DNA of 64,000 nucleotides, taken from assembly GCA_947463325.1 (NCBI GenBank), contig CANHQT010000001.1, positions 124,001 to 188,000 on the forward strand. Direction: 5' to 3'. Below, in pieces: positions 3,622 to 30,327 of this stretch. Made by a program: the position numbers and the translations under genes. This stretch comes from Sphingomonadaceae bacterium (GTDB taxonomy: Bacteria; Pseudomonadota; Alphaproteobacteria; Sphingomonadales; Sphingomonadaceae). Each line of letters begins with the position of its first letter. Position 1 is the stretch's first letter. The notes beneath the pieces are model-generated. The model saw only the letters and a program-made list of their open reading frames with translations. It did no database searches and had not been told where the DNA came from.

Positions 3622-6336
3622 ATGCAAATGTTCGCCCGCCTTGCCACCGCTATCTTGGCGGTCTCTGCGCTCCTTGGACTTGGTCCGGGGAGCGTTGGCG
3701 CATCCATGGCCCGGGCAGAAACACCGTCCACGGCATGGGTACCGCACGAGGACGAACAGTGGCTATTCGATCTACGCACCACCCGGCTGACCATTGGCAA
3801 CGGGATTCGCGGCTATTCCGACGGTCGGCGGACATGCGTTGTTCTGGAAGACATGATTCTTGCGCTCGATCTGCCGTTGAGGATCGATCCCGAGTTGCGC
3901 CGCGCAACTGGATGGGCGTTCGATGAGCGGCAGACAATTGAGATCGATCGCGCCGCCGGTCGTGCTCGCGTTGCCAGCCGTTCGGCTGCGTTACCGGTCA
4001 ATGCGATCATCGATACCGATGAAGGCTGGTGCGTCGATCCGGCGATGCTCGGTGAGTGGCTCGGTATCGGCCTCAATGCAGATCTGTCCAATTCAGTTTT
4101 GCGTATCCGTTCGGATCAGGCGTTGCCGTTCGAGCTGGCTGCACAGCGCCGCGCGCGAGCCGCTTCGCTTGGCGGACGCCAGCAATTCAACCTTGCCGAT
4201 CTTCCGCAGGCCCGCCGTCCTTATGCGATGGCAAGTCTCCCCTCGGTCGATGTCGTCGCCTCGGCAGCCGTCATCAACGATACCCGCACAGGACGGAGCG
4301 ACCGGCAGCTGCGGTATGAGTTGTTTGCCAGCGGCGAGCTGTTCGGCGCGTCCTATGATGCACGGCTTTCATCGGATTCGCGGGGAATTCCTGCCTCTCT
4401 GCGGGTTCGTGCTTATCGGTCTGATCCGGAAGGCGGACTGTTCGGGCCGTTGCAGGCAACGCATGTTGCGGCAGGCGACGTCACGACTTTGTCCACACCG
4501 CTCGTCTCGCAGCCGGTCGTCGGCCGCGGTGCGGTGATCACCAACCGCGCATTGGATTTGCCTGACAGTTTTGATCGGACCACCTTCCGGGGCGATCTGC
4601 CCGCAGGGTGGGATGCCGAACTGTATCGCAATGGTCAGTTGCTCGGATTTGCTACACCCGGCAGCGATGGGCGGTACGAATTCGCAGATGTGCGCCTGCA
4701 ATATGGTGTGAACCGCTTCGAAGTCGTGCTTTACGGCCCGCAGGGGCAGGTGCGACGCGAAGTGCGCAACATTCCGGTGGGCCTCGAAGCCATTCCGCCT
4801 CAGAAAACCTATTATTGGGCCGGAATTGTACAGGAAGGGCGCGATCTGTTGCGGCTGGATGGCGACGATGATCGTCCTTTCCGTCGCGGATGGCGCGGAA
4901 CATTCGGCATAGAGCGCGGACTAAACCGGCGCATGTCCGTTGGGGCCTGGGCGACAAGCGCCCTCATAGAGGATGTGCGCTACAATAGCGTCGAGGGCCT
5001 TGTCCGCCACAGCATCGGACCAACTCTCGCGGAAGTCAGCATGGCCATCCAGAATGGCGGCGGCCATGCCGGCCGTTTGCTGTGGGCGGGGCAGTTCGGG
5101 GATAATTATTTCACGTTTGAATCGCTTCTGGCACGCGGCGGCTATCGTTCGGATCGTGTCACTCTGGGCGTGACCGGTTTGCACAGTCTCTCGATCGATC
5201 TGGCACCGCGCATCGCCGGTACCGTTCTACCGCTTCATCTGGAGACAAGCTATCGTCAGCAAGCAAATGGTATCAATCGGCTGGAGGCGGGCGCCCGTGT
5301 TTCGGCCAATTGGCGCAATATTTCGCTGACGTCCCAGCTCGATTGGGTCGAAACTCGCGGGCGAGGGCGTTCCGACAGCGATCTGGTCGCGAGCTTGCTA
5401 GCCAACGCGCGGCTTGGCCGGTTCCGGATCCGGGGTGAGGCGCGCATCGGCATCACCGGCAATGCCTCTGATGACCGGATCCTGGTCGTTGCCGACTGGA
5501 ATCGCTCCGAACGAACCGACATGCGTGTTGAGCTGGCCTATGAATCGGGCGCAAACAGGGTTCGGGCTGGGGCAGGTTATACGCGCAGGTTCGAAAAATT
5601 TGCGCTGACCGCACAGGGCGAGGTCGCGAGCGACGGTTCGATGGCCGCGGGCATCAGTCTGAGTTTTGGAATAGGGCCTGATCCGCAGCGCGGTGGCATG
5701 CGTTTTTCGCGCGAACGGCTGGCGGCCCAAGGTCAGGCGCTGGCACGGCTCTTCTATGACGATAATGGCGATGGTCGCCGCCAAGCTGGCGAGGAGTTTG
5801 CCGAAGGCATCATCCTCACCGCAGGCAATGCGGTTGCTGCCGAGCCGACCAATGCCGAAGGCGTTGCGCTGATCGATGCGTTGGCACCGTTCCGGCCGGT
5901 GCTTATCGGCATTGATGAAAGCTCGCTGGCGAGTCCGTTGGTGCGGCCAGCGATCCCCGGCGTCGTGGTCACGCCGCGTCCCGGCGTAGTAACCGAAATC
6001 GCTATCCCGCTTGTCGCCGCTGGTGAAGTTGAGGGCATGGTCATTCGCCGTGGCGGCACAGGGATCGAAGGACTCGATCTCGAGGTGATCGACGCCAACG
6101 GCCATGTACGGGCTGTCGCGCGCACCGACTTTGACGGATTTTTCATTATAGAATCAGTGCCATACGGCCATTATCGGCTGCGCATCTCCGCCTTGTCCGC
6201 CGCTGCTGCCAATGTGTCGCCGGATCTGGGGACAATCATTCTCAGCCGCGAACGACCGCGCGTGCGATTGGGAACAATTGCTGTCGATGCACGTGCTGGC
6301 GCGATGGATGTCGCGGTGGTTGCCGCGCGTCGCTGA
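3622..6336 (+). CDS. Outer-membrane usher-like protein with C-terminal Cna-B/SdrD-like domains
   Basis: This is a 904-residue exported protein with a signal peptide of about 34 residues. A periplasmic N-terminal part (to about 270) is followed by FRGDLPAGWDAELYRNGQLL, a pattern seen in usher proteins at the plug and first barrel strands. About 300 residues of alternating polar and aromatic beta strands come next (roughly 390-690), fitting a barrel. The C-terminus carries DDNGDGRRQAGEEF (SdrD-B/Cna-B type, calcium-loop-like) and a second carboxypeptidase-regulatory-like fold near 805-880. The FimD/PapC C-terminal domain is not evident, so this is a divergent usher or usher-adhesin hybrid. Neighbouring genes supply its chaperone and subunit. 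The transport role is inferred. Confidence 0.65.
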   Translation: MQMFARLATAILAVSALLGLGPGSVGASMARAETPSTAWVPHEDEQWLFDLRTTRLTIGNGIRGYSDGRRTCVVLEDMILALDLPLRIDPELRRATGWAFDERQTIEIDRAAGRARVASRSAALPVNAIIDTDEGWCVDPAMLGEWLGIGLNADLSNSVLRIRSDQALPFELAAQRRARAASLGGRQQFNLADLPQARRPYAMASLPSVDVVASAAVINDTRTGRSDRQLRYELFASGELFGASYDARLSSDSRGIPASLRVRAYRSDPEGGLFGPLQATHVAAGDVTTLSTPLVSQPVVGRGAVITNRALDLPDSFDRTTFRGDLPAGWDAELYRNGQLLGFATPGSDGRYEFADVRLQYGVNRFEVVLYGPQGQVRREVRNIPVGLEAIPPQKTYYWAGIVQEGRDLLRLDGDDDRPFRRGWRGTFGIERGLNRRMSVGAWATSALIEDVRYNSVEGLVRHSIGPTLAEVSMAIQNGGGHAGRLLWAGQFGDNYFTFESLLARGGYRSDRVTLGVTGLHSLSIDLAPRIAGTVLPLHLETSYRQQANGINRLEAGARVSANWRNISLTSQLDWVETRGRGRSDSDLVASLLANARLGRFRIRGEARIGITGNASDDRILVVADWNRSERTDMRVELAYESGANRVRAGAGYTRRFEKFALTAQGEVASDGSMAAGISLSFGIGPDPQRGGMRFSRERLAAQGQALARLFYDDNGDGRRQAGEEFAEGIILTAGNAVAAEPTNAEGVALIDALAPFRPVLIGIDESSLASPLVRPAIPGVVVTPRPGVVTEIAIPLVAAGEVEGMVIRRGGTGIEGLDLEVIDANGHVRAVARTDFDGFFIIESVPYGHYRLRISALSAAAANVSPDLGTIILSRERPRVRLGTIAVDARAGAMDVAVVAARR

Positions 6337-20171: not shown

Positions 20172-20930
20172 ATGACTCAATCCAAAATCTGGACTGCCGC
20201 CCTTGTCGTGATCGGCGACGAAATCCTTTCCGGCCGCACGCAGGACCGCAATATCACCCAGGTCGCCGCTTGGCTGAACGTGCAAGGCATCCGGCTCGTC
20301 GAGGTACGCGTGGTGCCCGATGTCGAGGATGCGATCATCGAGGCGGTGGATACGCTGCGTGCCCGCAACGACTATCTGTTCACCACCGGCGGCATTGGCC
20401 CGACGCATGACGATATCACGGTCGATGCCATTGCCCGCGCCCTCGGTGTGGGTGTGGTGCATCACCCCGATGCGGTCGATATCCTCACCCGCTATTATGA
20501 GACGCGCGGCGGCGTCACCGAGACGCGTCTACGCATGGCGCGCGTGCCGGAGGGGGCGGACCTCATCCCAAACCGTATGTCTGGTGCGCCCGGCATCCGC
20601 ATCGGCAACATCTTCATCATGGCCGGCGTGCCTGCGATCACCGCCGGTATGCTCGATGCCCTTACTGGCGAGCTGGAGGGTGGCGATCCACTGGTCTCGG
20701 TCACGCTCGGTGCCTGGGCAGCGGAAAGCGAGGTGGCCGATCTCCTCCGTACGGTCGAGCGGGATCATCCCGGCTGCGCCATCGGCAGCTATCCCTTCTT
20801 TCGCGAAGGGCGGGTTGGCGCCAATTTTGTCACCCGTTCGACCGAACTCGATCGGGCGCAGGCATGCAGCGCGTCCATTGCCGCTGGCCTTGCGGCACGC
20901 GGCTATGAATCGGTCGAAGGCGGGATTTGA
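20172..20930 (+). CDS. CinA N-domain (MoaB/MogA-like) protein
   Basis: This 252-residue protein has AALVVIGDEILSGRTQDRNI, VRVVPDVEDAIIEAV and FTTGGIGPTHDDITVDAIA, the molybdopterin-binding-fold motifs of the competence/damage-inducible protein CinA. The C-terminal nicotinamide-nucleotide deamidase domain of full-length CinA is absent, so this is the short COG1058-type form. Its biochemical role is uncertain; members have been linked to ADP-ribose or NMN-related pyrophosphatase activity. It starts at ATG 20172, divergent from map, and its last 28 bases overlap the end of the convergent MFS gene. Confidence 0.83.
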   Translation: MTQSKIWTAALVVIGDEILSGRTQDRNITQVAAWLNVQGIRLVEVRVVPDVEDAIIEAVDTLRARNDYLFTTGGIGPTHDDITVDAIARALGVGVVHHPDAVDILTRYYETRGGVTETRLRMARVPEGADLIPNRMSGAPGIRIGNIFIMAGVPAITAGMLDALTGELEGGDPLVSVTLGAWAAESEVADLLRTVERDHPGCAIGSYPFFREGRVGANFVTRSTELDRAQACSASIAAGLAARGYESVEGGI

Positions 20931-22153
20931 GTCGCGCGCGGCAACAATTGCAGCAGCATCAGGCAAGACAATCCGAACAGGGTCGAAACGATAAAGGCTG
21001 CGCCGGGGAAATGCACCGGCGCATCCGCTGCGGTGAACCGGGCCATGGTCCCCGTCAGCAATAATGGGGCGACCAGCGATCCCACGCCCATCGCCATCGC
21101 AGCCACACCCTGCACTTCGCCGTGCGTTTCCGGCGTCGCGCGCCGGCTCATCATCGCCATCAGGCTCGGCTGCACCAGTGCGCCGGGAACCAGGGTGACC
21201 ATGATCACAAAGGCCATCCAGCCTTCATCGGCAAAGGCATAAGCGAGATAGCCGGTACATGACGCCATGAGGCCGATGGACGCGGCCTTGCGTTCGCCGA
21301 GCCGCGCAACCGCCGGGCCGGTCACGAAGAATTGAGCAAAGGCAATGACCAAGCCTACAACGGCAAGGCTTGCGCCGATCATCGCAGTCGACCAGCCGAA
21401 CTTTGCCATGGCGTAGAAGCTCCAGGTCAACGGATAGACGAGGCTGGCGATCTGCCAAAGCGTCAGCACGGCGGCCACGCCCATCATACCGGGGATCGCG
21501 CGCGCCGCACTCAGTGCGCCCAGTGGATTGGCGCGCCGCCAGTCAAAACGCCGCCGGCGCTCACGCTCCAGGGTTTCGGGAAACAATGTCAGTCCATAGA
21601 TGAAATTGGCTGCCGCCAGTATCGATGCAGCGACGAATGGCGCGCGCGGACCCATCTCGCCGAGCAGTCCGCCGATGGCCGGGCCGGCGATGAATCCGAC
21701 GCCAAAAGCTGCGCCGACATAGCCGAAGTTGCGGGCGCGTTCCTCCGGGCGGGTAACGTCGGCGATGGCGGCCTGAGCCGCCGCATAGCTGCCACCAAAA
21801 ATCCCGGAGATAACCCGCGCCAGAAACAGCAGCGGGAGCGTGTCGACGACAACCAGCAGCACATAATCGATGGCCAGGCCCGCCAACGACAACAGCAACA
21901 CCGTGCGCCGGCCAAAGGCATCGGAGAGATTGCCCAGCACCGGGGCTGAAAAAAATGTCGCCAGCGCCATGGCAAGGCCGATCCAGGCGCCGATGCCGAT
22001 CGCATCAGCCAAGCCCACGCGCGCGACGTCCATCACCAGTTCCGGGAGCACCGGCATGATGATCCCAAACCCGACCGCATCGATGAATATCGTGAATACG
22101 ATGAAGGGGATGATGTGCCGCGTCGCGGCGGAAGGCGGAGACGCGGTGCTCAC
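20903..22153 (-). CDS. MFS exporter, TetA/DHA1-like
   Basis: This 416-residue protein has about 12 transmembrane segments. The MFS motif A reads LGNLSDAFGRRTVLLLSLAG after helix 2, and RVISGIFGGSYAAAQAAIADV with the following GPAIGGLLGE is the motif C region, both typical of drug:H+ antiporters of the tetracycline-exporter type. The exported substrate is unknown and resistance should not be assumed. It starts 64 bases after the FkbM gene ends on the same strand and so may be the last gene of that cluster, perhaps exporting a product or precursor (inference). Confidence 0.85.
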   Translation of the reverse strand: MSTASPPSAATRHIIPFIVFTIFIDAVGFGIIMPVLPELVMDVARVGLADAIGIGAWIGLAMALATFFSAPVLGNLSDAFGRRTVLLLSLAGLAIDYVLLVVVDTLPLLFLARVISGIFGGSYAAAQAAIADVTRPEERARNFGYVGAAFGVGFIAGPAIGGLLGEMGPRAPFVAASILAAANFIYGLTLFPETLERERRRRFDWRRANPLGALSAARAIPGMMGVAAVLTLWQIASLVYPLTWSFYAMAKFGWSTAMIGASLAVVGLVIAFAQFFVTGPAVARLGERKAASIGLMASCTGYLAYAFADEGWMAFVIMVTLVPGALVQPSLMAMMSRRATPETHGEVQGVAAMAMGVGSLVAPLLLTGTMARFTAADAPVHFPGAAFIVSTLFGLSCLMLLQLLPRATQIPPSTDS

Positions 22154-26020: not shown

Positions 26021-26983
26021 TTACTGGCTGATAAGGGGCGCAAGTGTTTGACTAACCTGCGAGCGGCTATCGGCTGGCGCGTCATAGGCGATCTGGATCA
26101 CGCTTACTGATATGGCGGCGCGGGCAACAGCAGCCTCGTCTTCGCCCTGTTCCGCCGCAGGCTCACCGGTCGCTCGCGAAAATAGCAGGCCGGGCATGGG
26201 AGAGGTGGTTTGCCGGCCGGTCGCGCGGCCCAGGTCTTCAACGAAGCGCAACTCGTAAGGCGAATAGCTCCCTATGCGGCTCATGCGCCATTGTGCGGTC
26301 TCGACAGAGGCCGGAAAATTGACGTTGAGGCCTAGTCCGGGCGGCAAAAGGGGGCTATCGCCGGCGCGTGCATCCAGCTGGCGGATCAGTTCCATGGTCT
26401 TCCCCGCAACAGACGTTGCGAGAGGATTGCGGAGATCCGGTCCGCTTTCCGATTGTTCGACGGCGCTCAATGCAATCGCCGGGATGCCCCGGATCATGGC
26501 ATATTGCGCGTTGCTGACCGTGCCGGAACTGATGACGATGGTTCCGGCATTCAGGCCTATGTTGGGGCCGGAGAGCACAAGGTCCGGTGCCCGCCCCCAT
26601 CGCGCCTGTGCGAGCACGTCAATGCCGTAGAGCGTCGCCATCACCGGGGTCCCGTCCAAATAATGGAAATCGGGGCCCAGATCGGCTCGGGTCATCACCC
26701 CCGCTCCCGGGTCGCCGGCGCGGGCGGCGCCGTTGACGCAGTCGCTGGCCAGCGGTTGTAGCGGGCGCATGGGCCGCAGCGCGGCGCCCATGCCACTTTG
26801 TTGGGCGCAGGGCACCACAACGATCACATCGTGTCCGTCTGCCTTCAGGGCATCATAAAGGGCCTTCACATTGGCGGTGAGGCCATCGTCGTTCGACAAC
26901 ACAATATTGCGGGCGTCTGCCGGGGCGGCAGTGGCTAAAACCACCGCCCCGAACAGAATGAGTGAGCCCAATCGCAAGCTCAT
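26021..26983 (-). CDS. Exported SurE-family 5'/3'-nucleotidase-like protein
   Basis: This 320-residue protein has a signal peptide (about residues 1-24, MSLRLGSLILFGAVVLATAA and following). Next come the SurE motifs VLSNDDGLTAN (metal Asp32 and Asp33), VVVPCAQQSGMG (conserved Ser) and LVLSGPNIGLNAG (Asn). Classical SurE is cytoplasmic and about 250 residues; this one is longer and exported, so it could dephosphorylate nucleotides or other phosphomonoesters in the periplasm. ATG 26983 lies 10 bases after the stop of the interrupted TonB receptor, so the two form one transcript, perhaps taking up and processing a phosphorylated nutrient. Confidence 0.8.
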   Translation of the reverse strand: MSLRLGSLILFGAVVLATAAPADARNIVLSNDDGLTANVKALYDALKADGHDVIVVVPCAQQSGMGAALRPMRPLQPLASDCVNGAARAGDPGAGVMTRADLGPDFHYLDGTPVMATLYGIDVLAQARWGRAPDLVLSGPNIGLNAGTIVISSGTVSNAQYAMIRGIPAIALSAVEQSESGPDLRNPLATSVAGKTMELIRQLDARAGDSPLLPPGLGLNVNFPASVETAQWRMSRIGSYSPYELRFVEDLGRATGRQTTSPMPGLLFSRATGEPAAEQGEDEAAVARAAISVSVIQIAYDAPADSRSQVSQTLAPLISQ

Positions 26984-26993
26984 CTGCTTTGGC

Positions 26994-29231
26994 CTAGAAT
27001 CGCACGCGGGCTTGAAGGCCATAAGTGCGTGGGTCGTTGTAGATGGTCGACGTCTGGCGGCTGGCGACGCGGAAATCGAAGTAGTTATAGGTCACGTCGG
27101 TCAGATTCTTGACCCATAGCGCCAGTTCCAGCGTGCCACCCGCAACCTCGATGTCACTGAGGGTCAGTCTGCCATTGATCAGGAAGGCACTGTCCGCCTG
27201 ATACGTCACGGTATTGTTCGCAAAATAATTGCCGGCGGTGTTCGCATCTAGGTGCAGCCTCAACTCGCCAAAGGACAGGCGGGGGAAGGTATAATCTGCC
27301 GTGAATGTCACCGCATGGCGCGGCGTGAAGGCCGAGCTGACCTGCTGGATCGCGCCGGAGAAGATATTGACCACCGGTGTCGGCGGAGCGTCCGTGAAGA
27401 CATAGTTGGCGCCCAGCAGCAGATTGTCGGTCGGAGCCAGCGTCACATCGAGCTCCACACCCTTGATCTGCCGGGTTTCCGGAGCGTTGACCGTCTCGGT
27501 GTTCGAAACGAAAGCTGGATTGATGAAGTCGACCTGCTGGTTGGACAGCTCACTGGTATAGGCCGCCAGGTTGAAACGGGCCCGGCGGTCAAACAGGTCC
27601 GCTTTGATCCCCGCCTCCCAGGCGACCAGCTCTTCTTCACCGAACGGCCGCAGGATGGACGAGCGGGTGTTGGCGCCCCCCGCACGGTAAGCGCGGCTGA
27701 CCTTTACATAGGCATTGATGTCATCGCTGAAATCATAAGCGATGGTCGCCATGGGGTCGATACGGCTGGAGTTGAATTCGAAGTTCAGGTTCGGATTCGC
27801 GCCGCGGATCGCGGTCAGCAGGCCGTCCTTGCTGTCATCGGTGTAACGCAGGCCGGCGGTGAGATGGAGCCCTTCCAGCGCCGATGGCGACCAGGTGAAC
27901 TGGCCGAACACTGCCGTCGACCGCACATTCACCCGCGCCGCGCGATCGGGGATAGCCGTGCCGCCGTCCGGGACCGGCGCCGGGAACAGGACGAGGCCGG
28001 TGTTGGTCGCGTTCAGTCGCCCGGCGGAATAAACGATCGCTTCGTCCGCCCCATTTTCGTTGAAATAATATCCGCCGACCACATAGCTGAGATCGCCAGC
28101 CTCGCCCACGAGCTGGAGCTCCTGGCTGAACTGGTTCTGGTCGACGAGCGCGTAACTCAGTCTGCCGAACGTTCGGTTCGGCCCCCATGTAGTGACCGCA
28201 CCGGTATCTTGATCCCATTGGACGGAATTGAGATCCCGCCATGCAGTAATGGAGCGCAGCGTCAGATTATCTGTCAGATCCCATTCGGCCAGCAGCGAGT
28301 GCCCTGCGGCACGCTGTGGATTGCGCAGCACCGGAACGCCGATACGACCGGTCCGCACACGTCCTTCACGCAGGGTGATGAAGCTGGGCCTGACGGTAGC
28401 TGCCTGATCGGTTGCCGTGATGTCGCTGTAGGCGCTGGTCGATTCATCGTGCGACTGGTCGTACGAATAAAGGATCGAAACACCGTCGGCCGGCTCCCAG
28501 TGCGCCGATATCTTGAATCCATATTTGCGGATTTCCCCATAGTCGAGGAAGCTGGGGTCCGGGTTCATCACCAGGCCGCCCCGGTCGCTGTAAAGCCCGT
28601 CAACCTTGATGTTGATGCCGCCGATGCTGGGCAGGTTGAGGTGGGCCGCCACCATACGGCTGTCGTAATTGCCGAAGCCGCCACGCAGATCGAGGCCGAA
28701 TTCGCCGGTCGGTCGCCGCGTCACGATGCTGACCGCGCCGCCGATTGTGTTGCGGCCGAACAGCGTCCCCTGCGGGCCGCGCAGGACTTCGATCCGCTCA
28801 ATGTCGGACAATTCCATGCCAAGGCCGGAGACACGGCCGACATAGACGCTGTCGATATAGATGCCGACCGTGGGGTCGCGCGTTACTTGCGTCGCATCGA
28901 CTGGGACCAGGCCGCGCATGCCGATGGTGACGGCTGACGCTCTGCCGAGAAAGGGCGAAATCCGAAGCGACGGGACGCTGCCGGAGAAAAGGTCGCTCAG
29001 CGAGTTGACGCCGCGTTGTTCCAGCGTGTCGGCACCCAGCGCAACGATGGAGATCGGGGTGTCTTGGAGGTTCTCTTCACGCTTTTGCGCGGTGACGACA
29101 ATGTCTTCGATGCCTTCGAACTCAGCTTGGTCGTCGGCCTCCTAGGCCTGCGCTTGTCCTGCCAGAGCAAATGAGCTGACGCTCAGTGCAAGCGCAATTC
29201 TGACTGTGCGCGAAAGGTCAAACCTCAACAT
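26994..29231 (-). pseudogene. TonB-dependent receptor interrupted by an in-frame amber codon
   Basis: The full frame of 745 codons begins at ATG 29231 behind a strong GGGAGGAAAC ribosome site. It encodes a signal peptide (MLRFDLSRTVRIALALSVSS..., ending AQA), then TAG at 29144-29142, then continues in the same frame. The next part is the TonB-box/plug start FEGIEDIVVTAQKREENLQD, then VLRGPQGTLFGRNTIGGA, a 22-strand-type barrel and the C-terminal Phe. No other stop or frameshift is seen. A single C-to-T change from CAG would explain it. It is therefore a recent pseudogene, a sequencing error or a gene needing amber suppression. AGGAGG overlaps the TAG but no start codon follows within 15 bases; the first in-frame ATG is at 28919, inside the plug. 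Confidence 0.85.
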
Positions 29232-29390
29232 CCCTGTTTCCTCCCCTGAAATGGCGAACGCCGGGCAACGCGCCCCCTTTTGAACTAAGAGGAGAATCGG
29301 GCCGCACCGAGGGTGCGCCCGAAGAGCCAAAGTTTGTCAGGTTTTCTGTCCCGCTACCCAAGGCCCGCCATCTCCCGAAGCGGCTGTCCG

Positions 29391-29493: not shown

Positions 29494-29514
29494 TTGTCCC
29501 GCATTATGGGACAA
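29494..29514. promoter_or_regulatory. Probable IclR-type operator
   Basis: TTGTCCC-N7-GGGACAA is a perfect 7-7-7 palindrome ending 27 bases before the start of the IclR-type gene. It faces the divergent TonB receptor/SurE genes. IclR regulators usually bind such short palindromes in the intergenic region they share with their targets. Binding is inferred from symmetry and position. Confidence 0.6.
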
Positions 29515-29541
29515 ATAGATGGTATCAGTGGAGTTGGCTTG

Positions 29542-30327
29542 ATGGCGGATAACGCGCCTGCGTCTCGAGGACCTATGCGGCCGGTCGGTCTGGCCCTTGC
29601 TGTGGTCGATCGGGTGGCCGAACTGCAACCCATCGGAGCCAGCGATCTCGCGCGGCACATCGCCTTACCCAAGGCTACCGTGCATCGTCTTTTGCTGGCG
29701 CTGGAGAGTTACGGCTGGCTTGAGCGCGACGCTGGACCAAGGCCGCGATGGTCACTGACCGTCAAACCGATAGGCATTGGCGGGCGAGCCATTGAGCGCA
29801 AGAGCGGTCTTCGCATGGCCGCTCTATCCGTCATGGATTCGCTGCGGCACGAAACGGGCGAGACCGTACACCTCGGCTTGCTCCACGGCGATAAGATGCT
29901 GTTGATTGAGCGCATTGACGGGATCAAGAGCGTCGGCATCTTCCTTCCTGTCGGGACCAGCTGGGATCTGACCTGGTCCAGTTCCGGCAGAGCGATCTTG
30001 GCCAATTTGTCCGCGGATGAGCAGCGTGAGTTTCTGCGGACACCCCGCTATCGTCGCAGGTCTGAGACGGATGTCATTCCCGTGGGCGAACTCATGGCTG
30101 AATTGGCCTTGGTCAGGGAACGAGGCTTCGCAATCTCGGTGGGGATAGCAGGAGCAAACAGCAGCAGCATTGGGGCGGCGATTTTTGACAGGCATGGCGC
30201 CCCCTTCGCAGGTCTTTCCCTCAGTGGTGCCGTTGATCGTCTGCGCGAACCCGAGCTTATGGCCTTGGCTCCACTGCTTGTTGAAGCTGCCCGCAGGATA
30301 AGCATGGGCATGGCGCTGCAGGTCTGA
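29542..30327 (+). CDS. IclR-family transcriptional regulator
   Basis: This 261-residue protein has an N-terminal winged helix-turn-helix (about 15-75, with GASDLARHIALPKATVHRLLLALESYGWL). A C-terminal effector-binding domain follows, with ETGETVHLGLLHGDKMLLIERI, PVGTSWDLTWSSSGRAILA and ISVGIAGANSSSIGAAIFDRHG. ATG 29542 is chosen because GGAG lies 8 bases before it. A TTG at 29494 would lie within the operator palindrome. It is divergent from the TonB receptor/SurE pair and probably controls it in response to a small-molecule ligand. Confidence 0.9.
   Translation: MADNAPASRGPMRPVGLALAVVDRVAELQPIGASDLARHIALPKATVHRLLLALESYGWLERDAGPRPRWSLTVKPIGIGGRAIERKSGLRMAALSVMDSLRHETGETVHLGLLHGDKMLLIERIDGIKSVGIFLPVGTSWDLTWSSSGRAILANLSADEQREFLRTPRYRRRSETDVIPVGELMAELALVRERGFAISVGIAGANSSSIGAAIFDRHGAPFAGLSLSGAVDRLREPELMALAPLLVEAARRISMGMALQV

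Follow-up and report, generated by a model that had tools for sequence, protein, structure and literature searches.

Does a single amber codon behind the signal peptide of an otherwise open receptor gene mean that the receptor has been lost, or is the codon decoded, switchable or simply false? The question is raised by a 64,000-nucleotide stretch of a Sphingomonadaceae contig, CANHQT010000001.1 (the window), in which the frame of a TonB-dependent receptor runs on the minus strand from an ATG at 29231 to 26994 and comprises 745 codons. Translation reveals one internal stop in the whole frame, a TAG at 29144–29142, which is codon 30 counted from the ATG. A sequence-only reading of the window had placed a lone in-frame TAG after a signal-peptide-like start, and it lies exactly there. 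That reading had offered four explanations, namely recent inactivation, phase-like on/off variation, suppression by a tRNA and an assembly error.

Codons 1–29 (29145–29231) encode a signal-peptide-like start that ends in AQA and resembles the corresponding stretch of the orthologues; it was called by eye and by comparison with these. Eight bases before the ATG lies a purine-rich, ribosome-site-like element, AGGGGAGG (29240–29247, minus strand), also recognised by eye. Beyond the TAG, translation and tblastn give 715 open codons (26997–29141) for the mature TonB-dependent receptor. A TonB-box-like DIVVTA is found among the residues past the TAG by eye and by orthologue comparison, and residues 25–136 of the mature part (28734–29069) match the Plug domain PF07715 with an E-value of 3.3e-16 and 60.2 bits against a cut-off of 23.9. 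No Pfam barrel model matched the receptor within the E-value limit; the NCBIfam TonB-siderophore receptor profile covers residues 424–715, up to the final residue, at a score below its curated cut-off. Of the receptor parts proposed earlier, the plug is confirmed by Pfam, the candidate ribosome site, signal peptide and TonB box were recognised by eye, and the barrel has the sub-threshold NCBIfam match.

The earlier description of the frame as intact from ATG 29231 to the terminal Phe is borne out by the 715 open codons and by tblastn, in which receptor residues 1–745 form one unbroken alignment with the nearest orthologue at 86% identity. Intact orthologues co-align with the frame up to the C-terminal Phe, and the match is far beyond chance. 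The gene's own terminator (26994–26996, minus strand), which the sequence-only reading had passed over, is a TAG too; the orthologues end in TGA in 15 of 16 rows and in TAA in the remaining one.

The orthologues also supply the ancestral state of codon 30. By contig positions and lengths, three pairs among the 16 orthologue rows are the same genes (L040 and L116, L041 and L115, L043 and L012), leaving 13 distinct orthologues. The comparison of the junction codon that had been proposed as a check returns a sense codon in every one of the 13: CAG in 11, CAA in one (L042) and GAG in one (L120). The TAG is therefore derived. The nearest orthologue among the matches listed, L011 in genome G016 of the same genus, is 87% identical over the mature part and reads GCC CAG GAC where the window reads GCC TAG GAG. 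CAG to TAG, suggested earlier as the simplest change, accordingly agrees with both the nearest orthologue and the majority, and on these alignments one C-to-T change in a Gln codon would account for the stop. An orthologue is present in 12 of the 79 other genomes of the genus (E ≤ 1e-150), which marks the receptor as accessory, a gene that the cell should be able to lose. A search for same-species sequence of the receptor returned four loci at 77–82% among genome contigs, a best match of 44% among plasmids, and no match among the viral contigs searched.

If the TAG is read as a stop, no start codon downstream would rescue the receptor. There is no in-frame ATG, GTG or TTG between the TAG and 28919, where the first such codon (28917–28919) opens an ORF of 26994–28919. 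This start falls within the plug, so a protein made from it would lack the signal peptide, the TonB box and part of the plug. A leader peptide or an internal start was rejected on this ground. Translation would probably yield the signal peptide of 29 residues and no receptor.

The receptor gene sits in a cassette with two neighbours. A divergent IclR-family regulator (29494–30327, plus strand; PF01614, PF09339) lies on one side, and the next gene downstream (26021–26983, minus strand; PF01975) encodes a SurE-like protein with a signal-peptide-like start; its translation could also begin at an in-frame ATG at 27022. Both neighbours stand beside the orthologue in five distinct genomes (L011, L012/L043, L040/L116, L041/L115 and L042), with identities of 67–72% for IclR and 60–66% for SurE. 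Neither was found within flanks of about 1.5 kb around the other eight orthologues, which are about 70% identical to the receptor. In the window the IclR and SurE-like genes stay open. Decay of the whole region was considered and rejected: the 52 genes picked by a rough script leave three gaps of more than 300 bases, one of which is the N-terminal part of the receptor gene together with its upstream region. When some 78 kb of G016 flanking the orthologue were compared with the window, only four stretches matched, so this genome is no yardstick for the window as a whole. Elsewhere in the window, the product of a gene at 20903–22153 (minus strand) is an MFS transporter; its top NCBIfam hit, the Tet(A)/(B)/(C) efflux model, scores 301 bits, well under the cut-off of 475.

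The gene body still bears the marks of purifying selection. Between the window receptor and L011, a scripted Nei–Gojobori count gave a dN/dS of 0.069 at a dS of 1.27, a value at which synonymous sites are near saturation. When changes were polarised by four outgroup rows, with codons containing a gap excluded and 177 differences unpolarisable, 95 synonymous and 43 nonsynonymous changes fell on the window branch and 111 and 51 on the L011 branch. Neither the dN/dS nor the branch counts show any sign of relaxed selection in the gene body. It follows that the stop is recent relative to the species split, or is not real, or that the protein is still made; the dN/dS test cannot separate a recent stop from a false base or from continued production.

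Under the second of these possibilities, the TAG stems from an error in the assembly or consensus, or is the minor allele of a mixed population, and the living strain would carry a sense codon and a working receptor. An otherwise intact frame under unrelaxed selection is what such an error would leave, and the assembly comprises 57 contigs and is without some tRNAs that every cell needs. Single substitution errors are, however, rare in deep short-read assemblies. An error or minor allele is unlikely, although it carries real weight. Recent inactivation accords with the same frame: as in a recent nonsense pseudogene, a single derived stop interrupts a gene whose remainder is open and whose orthologues in relatives are intact.

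Alternatively, suppression or leaky readthrough of the amber codon might still yield some full-length receptor. Purifying selection on the gene body is compatible with this, and the variation of the junction residue (codons CAG, CAA and GAG) suggests that several inserted residues might be tolerated. The parallel for such decoding is supE44 of E. coli XL1-Blue, a mutant tRNA-Gln by which UAG is partly decoded as Gln (PMC11148124). The residue inserted there, Gln, is also the one that most relatives carry here, whereas a tRNA-Gln with a CUA anticodon is needed there and the two tRNA-Gln of the window's genome have the anticodons TTG and CTG.

The suppression offered by the sequence-only reading found no backing in the amber-tRNA search. 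The window's genome has 43 tRNA matches (RF00005), and ARAGORN read the anticodons of 42; none of these 42 is CTA, in a tRNA set that is incomplete. In the 43rd match (L110) the acceptor stem is mispaired, and the anticodon loop, CUCCGAA, reads Arg-CCG. Ile-GAT, Ala-TGC and Ser-TGA were not found among the matches despite a stated completeness of 99.99%, and with the set incomplete an amber tRNA could be absent from the list too. Release factor 1 is present, scoring over its cut-off in an open frame, and TAG is in ordinary use as a terminator: among the 52 predicted window genes, which are the individually unchecked picks of a simple and rough codon-usage script, 33 end in TGA, 10 in TAA and 9 in TAG, the receptor gene being one of the 9. 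The absence of CTA among the anticodons read, the presence of release factor 1 and the use of TAG all count against readthrough, which is very unlikely. Its regulatory form, in which a leaky or conditional decoding of the amber codon throttles receptor production and purifying selection persists although the gene looks dead, has but a slim chance of being correct.

Some features of this genome were observed in passing. At 2.29 Mb, with the same stated completeness, it is small for its genus, in which most of the 79 others measure 3 to 5.7 Mb; genome G090 is likewise 2.3 Mb. At one further locus of the genome (L129, G000:C2:17500–21900), positions 227–415 and 4066–4254 of the locus form a 189-base direct repeat that is 95% identical, its copies lying 3839 bases apart. 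The repeat spans tRNA-Arg(CCG) and its degenerate duplicate, a pattern as from an integrated element. Four ORFs between the repeats were scanned; one encodes a Band-7/SHOCT protein and three are without a Pfam match, and no integrase was among the four.

The last explanation is a phase-like on/off variation, in which the codon would change from sense to stop and back unusually often. A short and perfect inverted repeat, GGCCT AGG AGGCC, holds the TAG (window 29130–29152); judged by eye, it might promote templated change in one of its arms. This repeat is possibly a chance product of GC-rich sequence, and inspection by eye revealed no repeat tract at the site of the kind that the proposed phase-like variation would call for. 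No phase-switching mechanism is known to act through a single substitution, and in the one genome of the species examined no alternative allele appeared. The L011 codon sits in CCAGG, a sequence prone to deamination in E. coli that carries dcm. Deamination of 5-methylcytosine was nevertheless rejected as a route to frequent change here: PF00145 (C5-methyltransferase) had no match in the window's genome, none in G016 and two in G024, and the control was positive in 10 of 14 genomes, E. coli included. Phase-like switching is thus exceedingly improbable.

Lone amber codons in receptor genes are found elsewhere in the group. Among the matches listed, another TonB-dependent receptor with a single TAG occurs in G024, of the same genus (L122, G024:C13:98500–102000), where the TAG replaces the conserved Gln of RGPQGTL and the frame is open for 159 codons before it and 627 after. 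A third receptor with a single TAG and an otherwise open frame, again among the matches listed, occurs in G044, of the same order (L123, G044:C27:3800–7000). Both share with the present gene a receptor frame that is open but for one TAG; they differ from it in being other receptor genes and in where the TAG lies, within the plug in G024 and within the barrel part in G044 rather than at the signal-peptide junction.

A DNA pattern for RGPQGT gave an approximate base rate. Across 80 genomes of the genus it had 1059 individually unchecked matches with CAG and two with TAG, of which the one in G024 is a receptor and the one in G092 is not. The resulting CAG-to-TAG rate is 1 in 1060 per site (exact 95% interval 0.00002 to 0.005), a figure which takes the one CAG codon measured as representative of all and which includes a case, G024, that had been spotted before the pattern was run. 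For genes with 17 CAG codons this puts the share with a CAG-to-TAG change at about 1.6% (0.04 to 9%), which corresponds to an expectation of 0.34 such receptors, with a very wide interval, for the 21 plug matches in the window's genome. No stop was present inside the matched stretch, the part examined, in any of these 21. A transition can produce TAG from 25 codons of the receptor gene, TGA from 12 and TAA from 9; amber is therefore the likeliest kind of stop.

Among the explanations offered by the sequence-only reading, recent inactivation is the best supported, by a derived stop in a gene whose remainder is intact. The TAG is probably an ordinary nonsense allele, either recent or strain-level, in an accessory receptor gene that belongs to an IclR–receptor–SurE cassette. 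In the proposed sequence of events, a C-to-T change would have struck a Gln codon of this accessory gene recently in the strain or species lineage; ribosomes would then halt after 29 residues and release only the bare signal peptide, and with no downstream start to rescue the receptor the gene would be inactive. We infer that the TAG is present in the living strain, in which case the receptor would not be made there.

For the biology of the organism, this reading would add little beyond annotation: an accessory outer-membrane receptor, intact in relatives, would have been caught at or just after its loss. Were readthrough of the TAG true in the native strain, the gene would instead be a rare case in which the amount of an outer-membrane receptor is controlled by amber readthrough.
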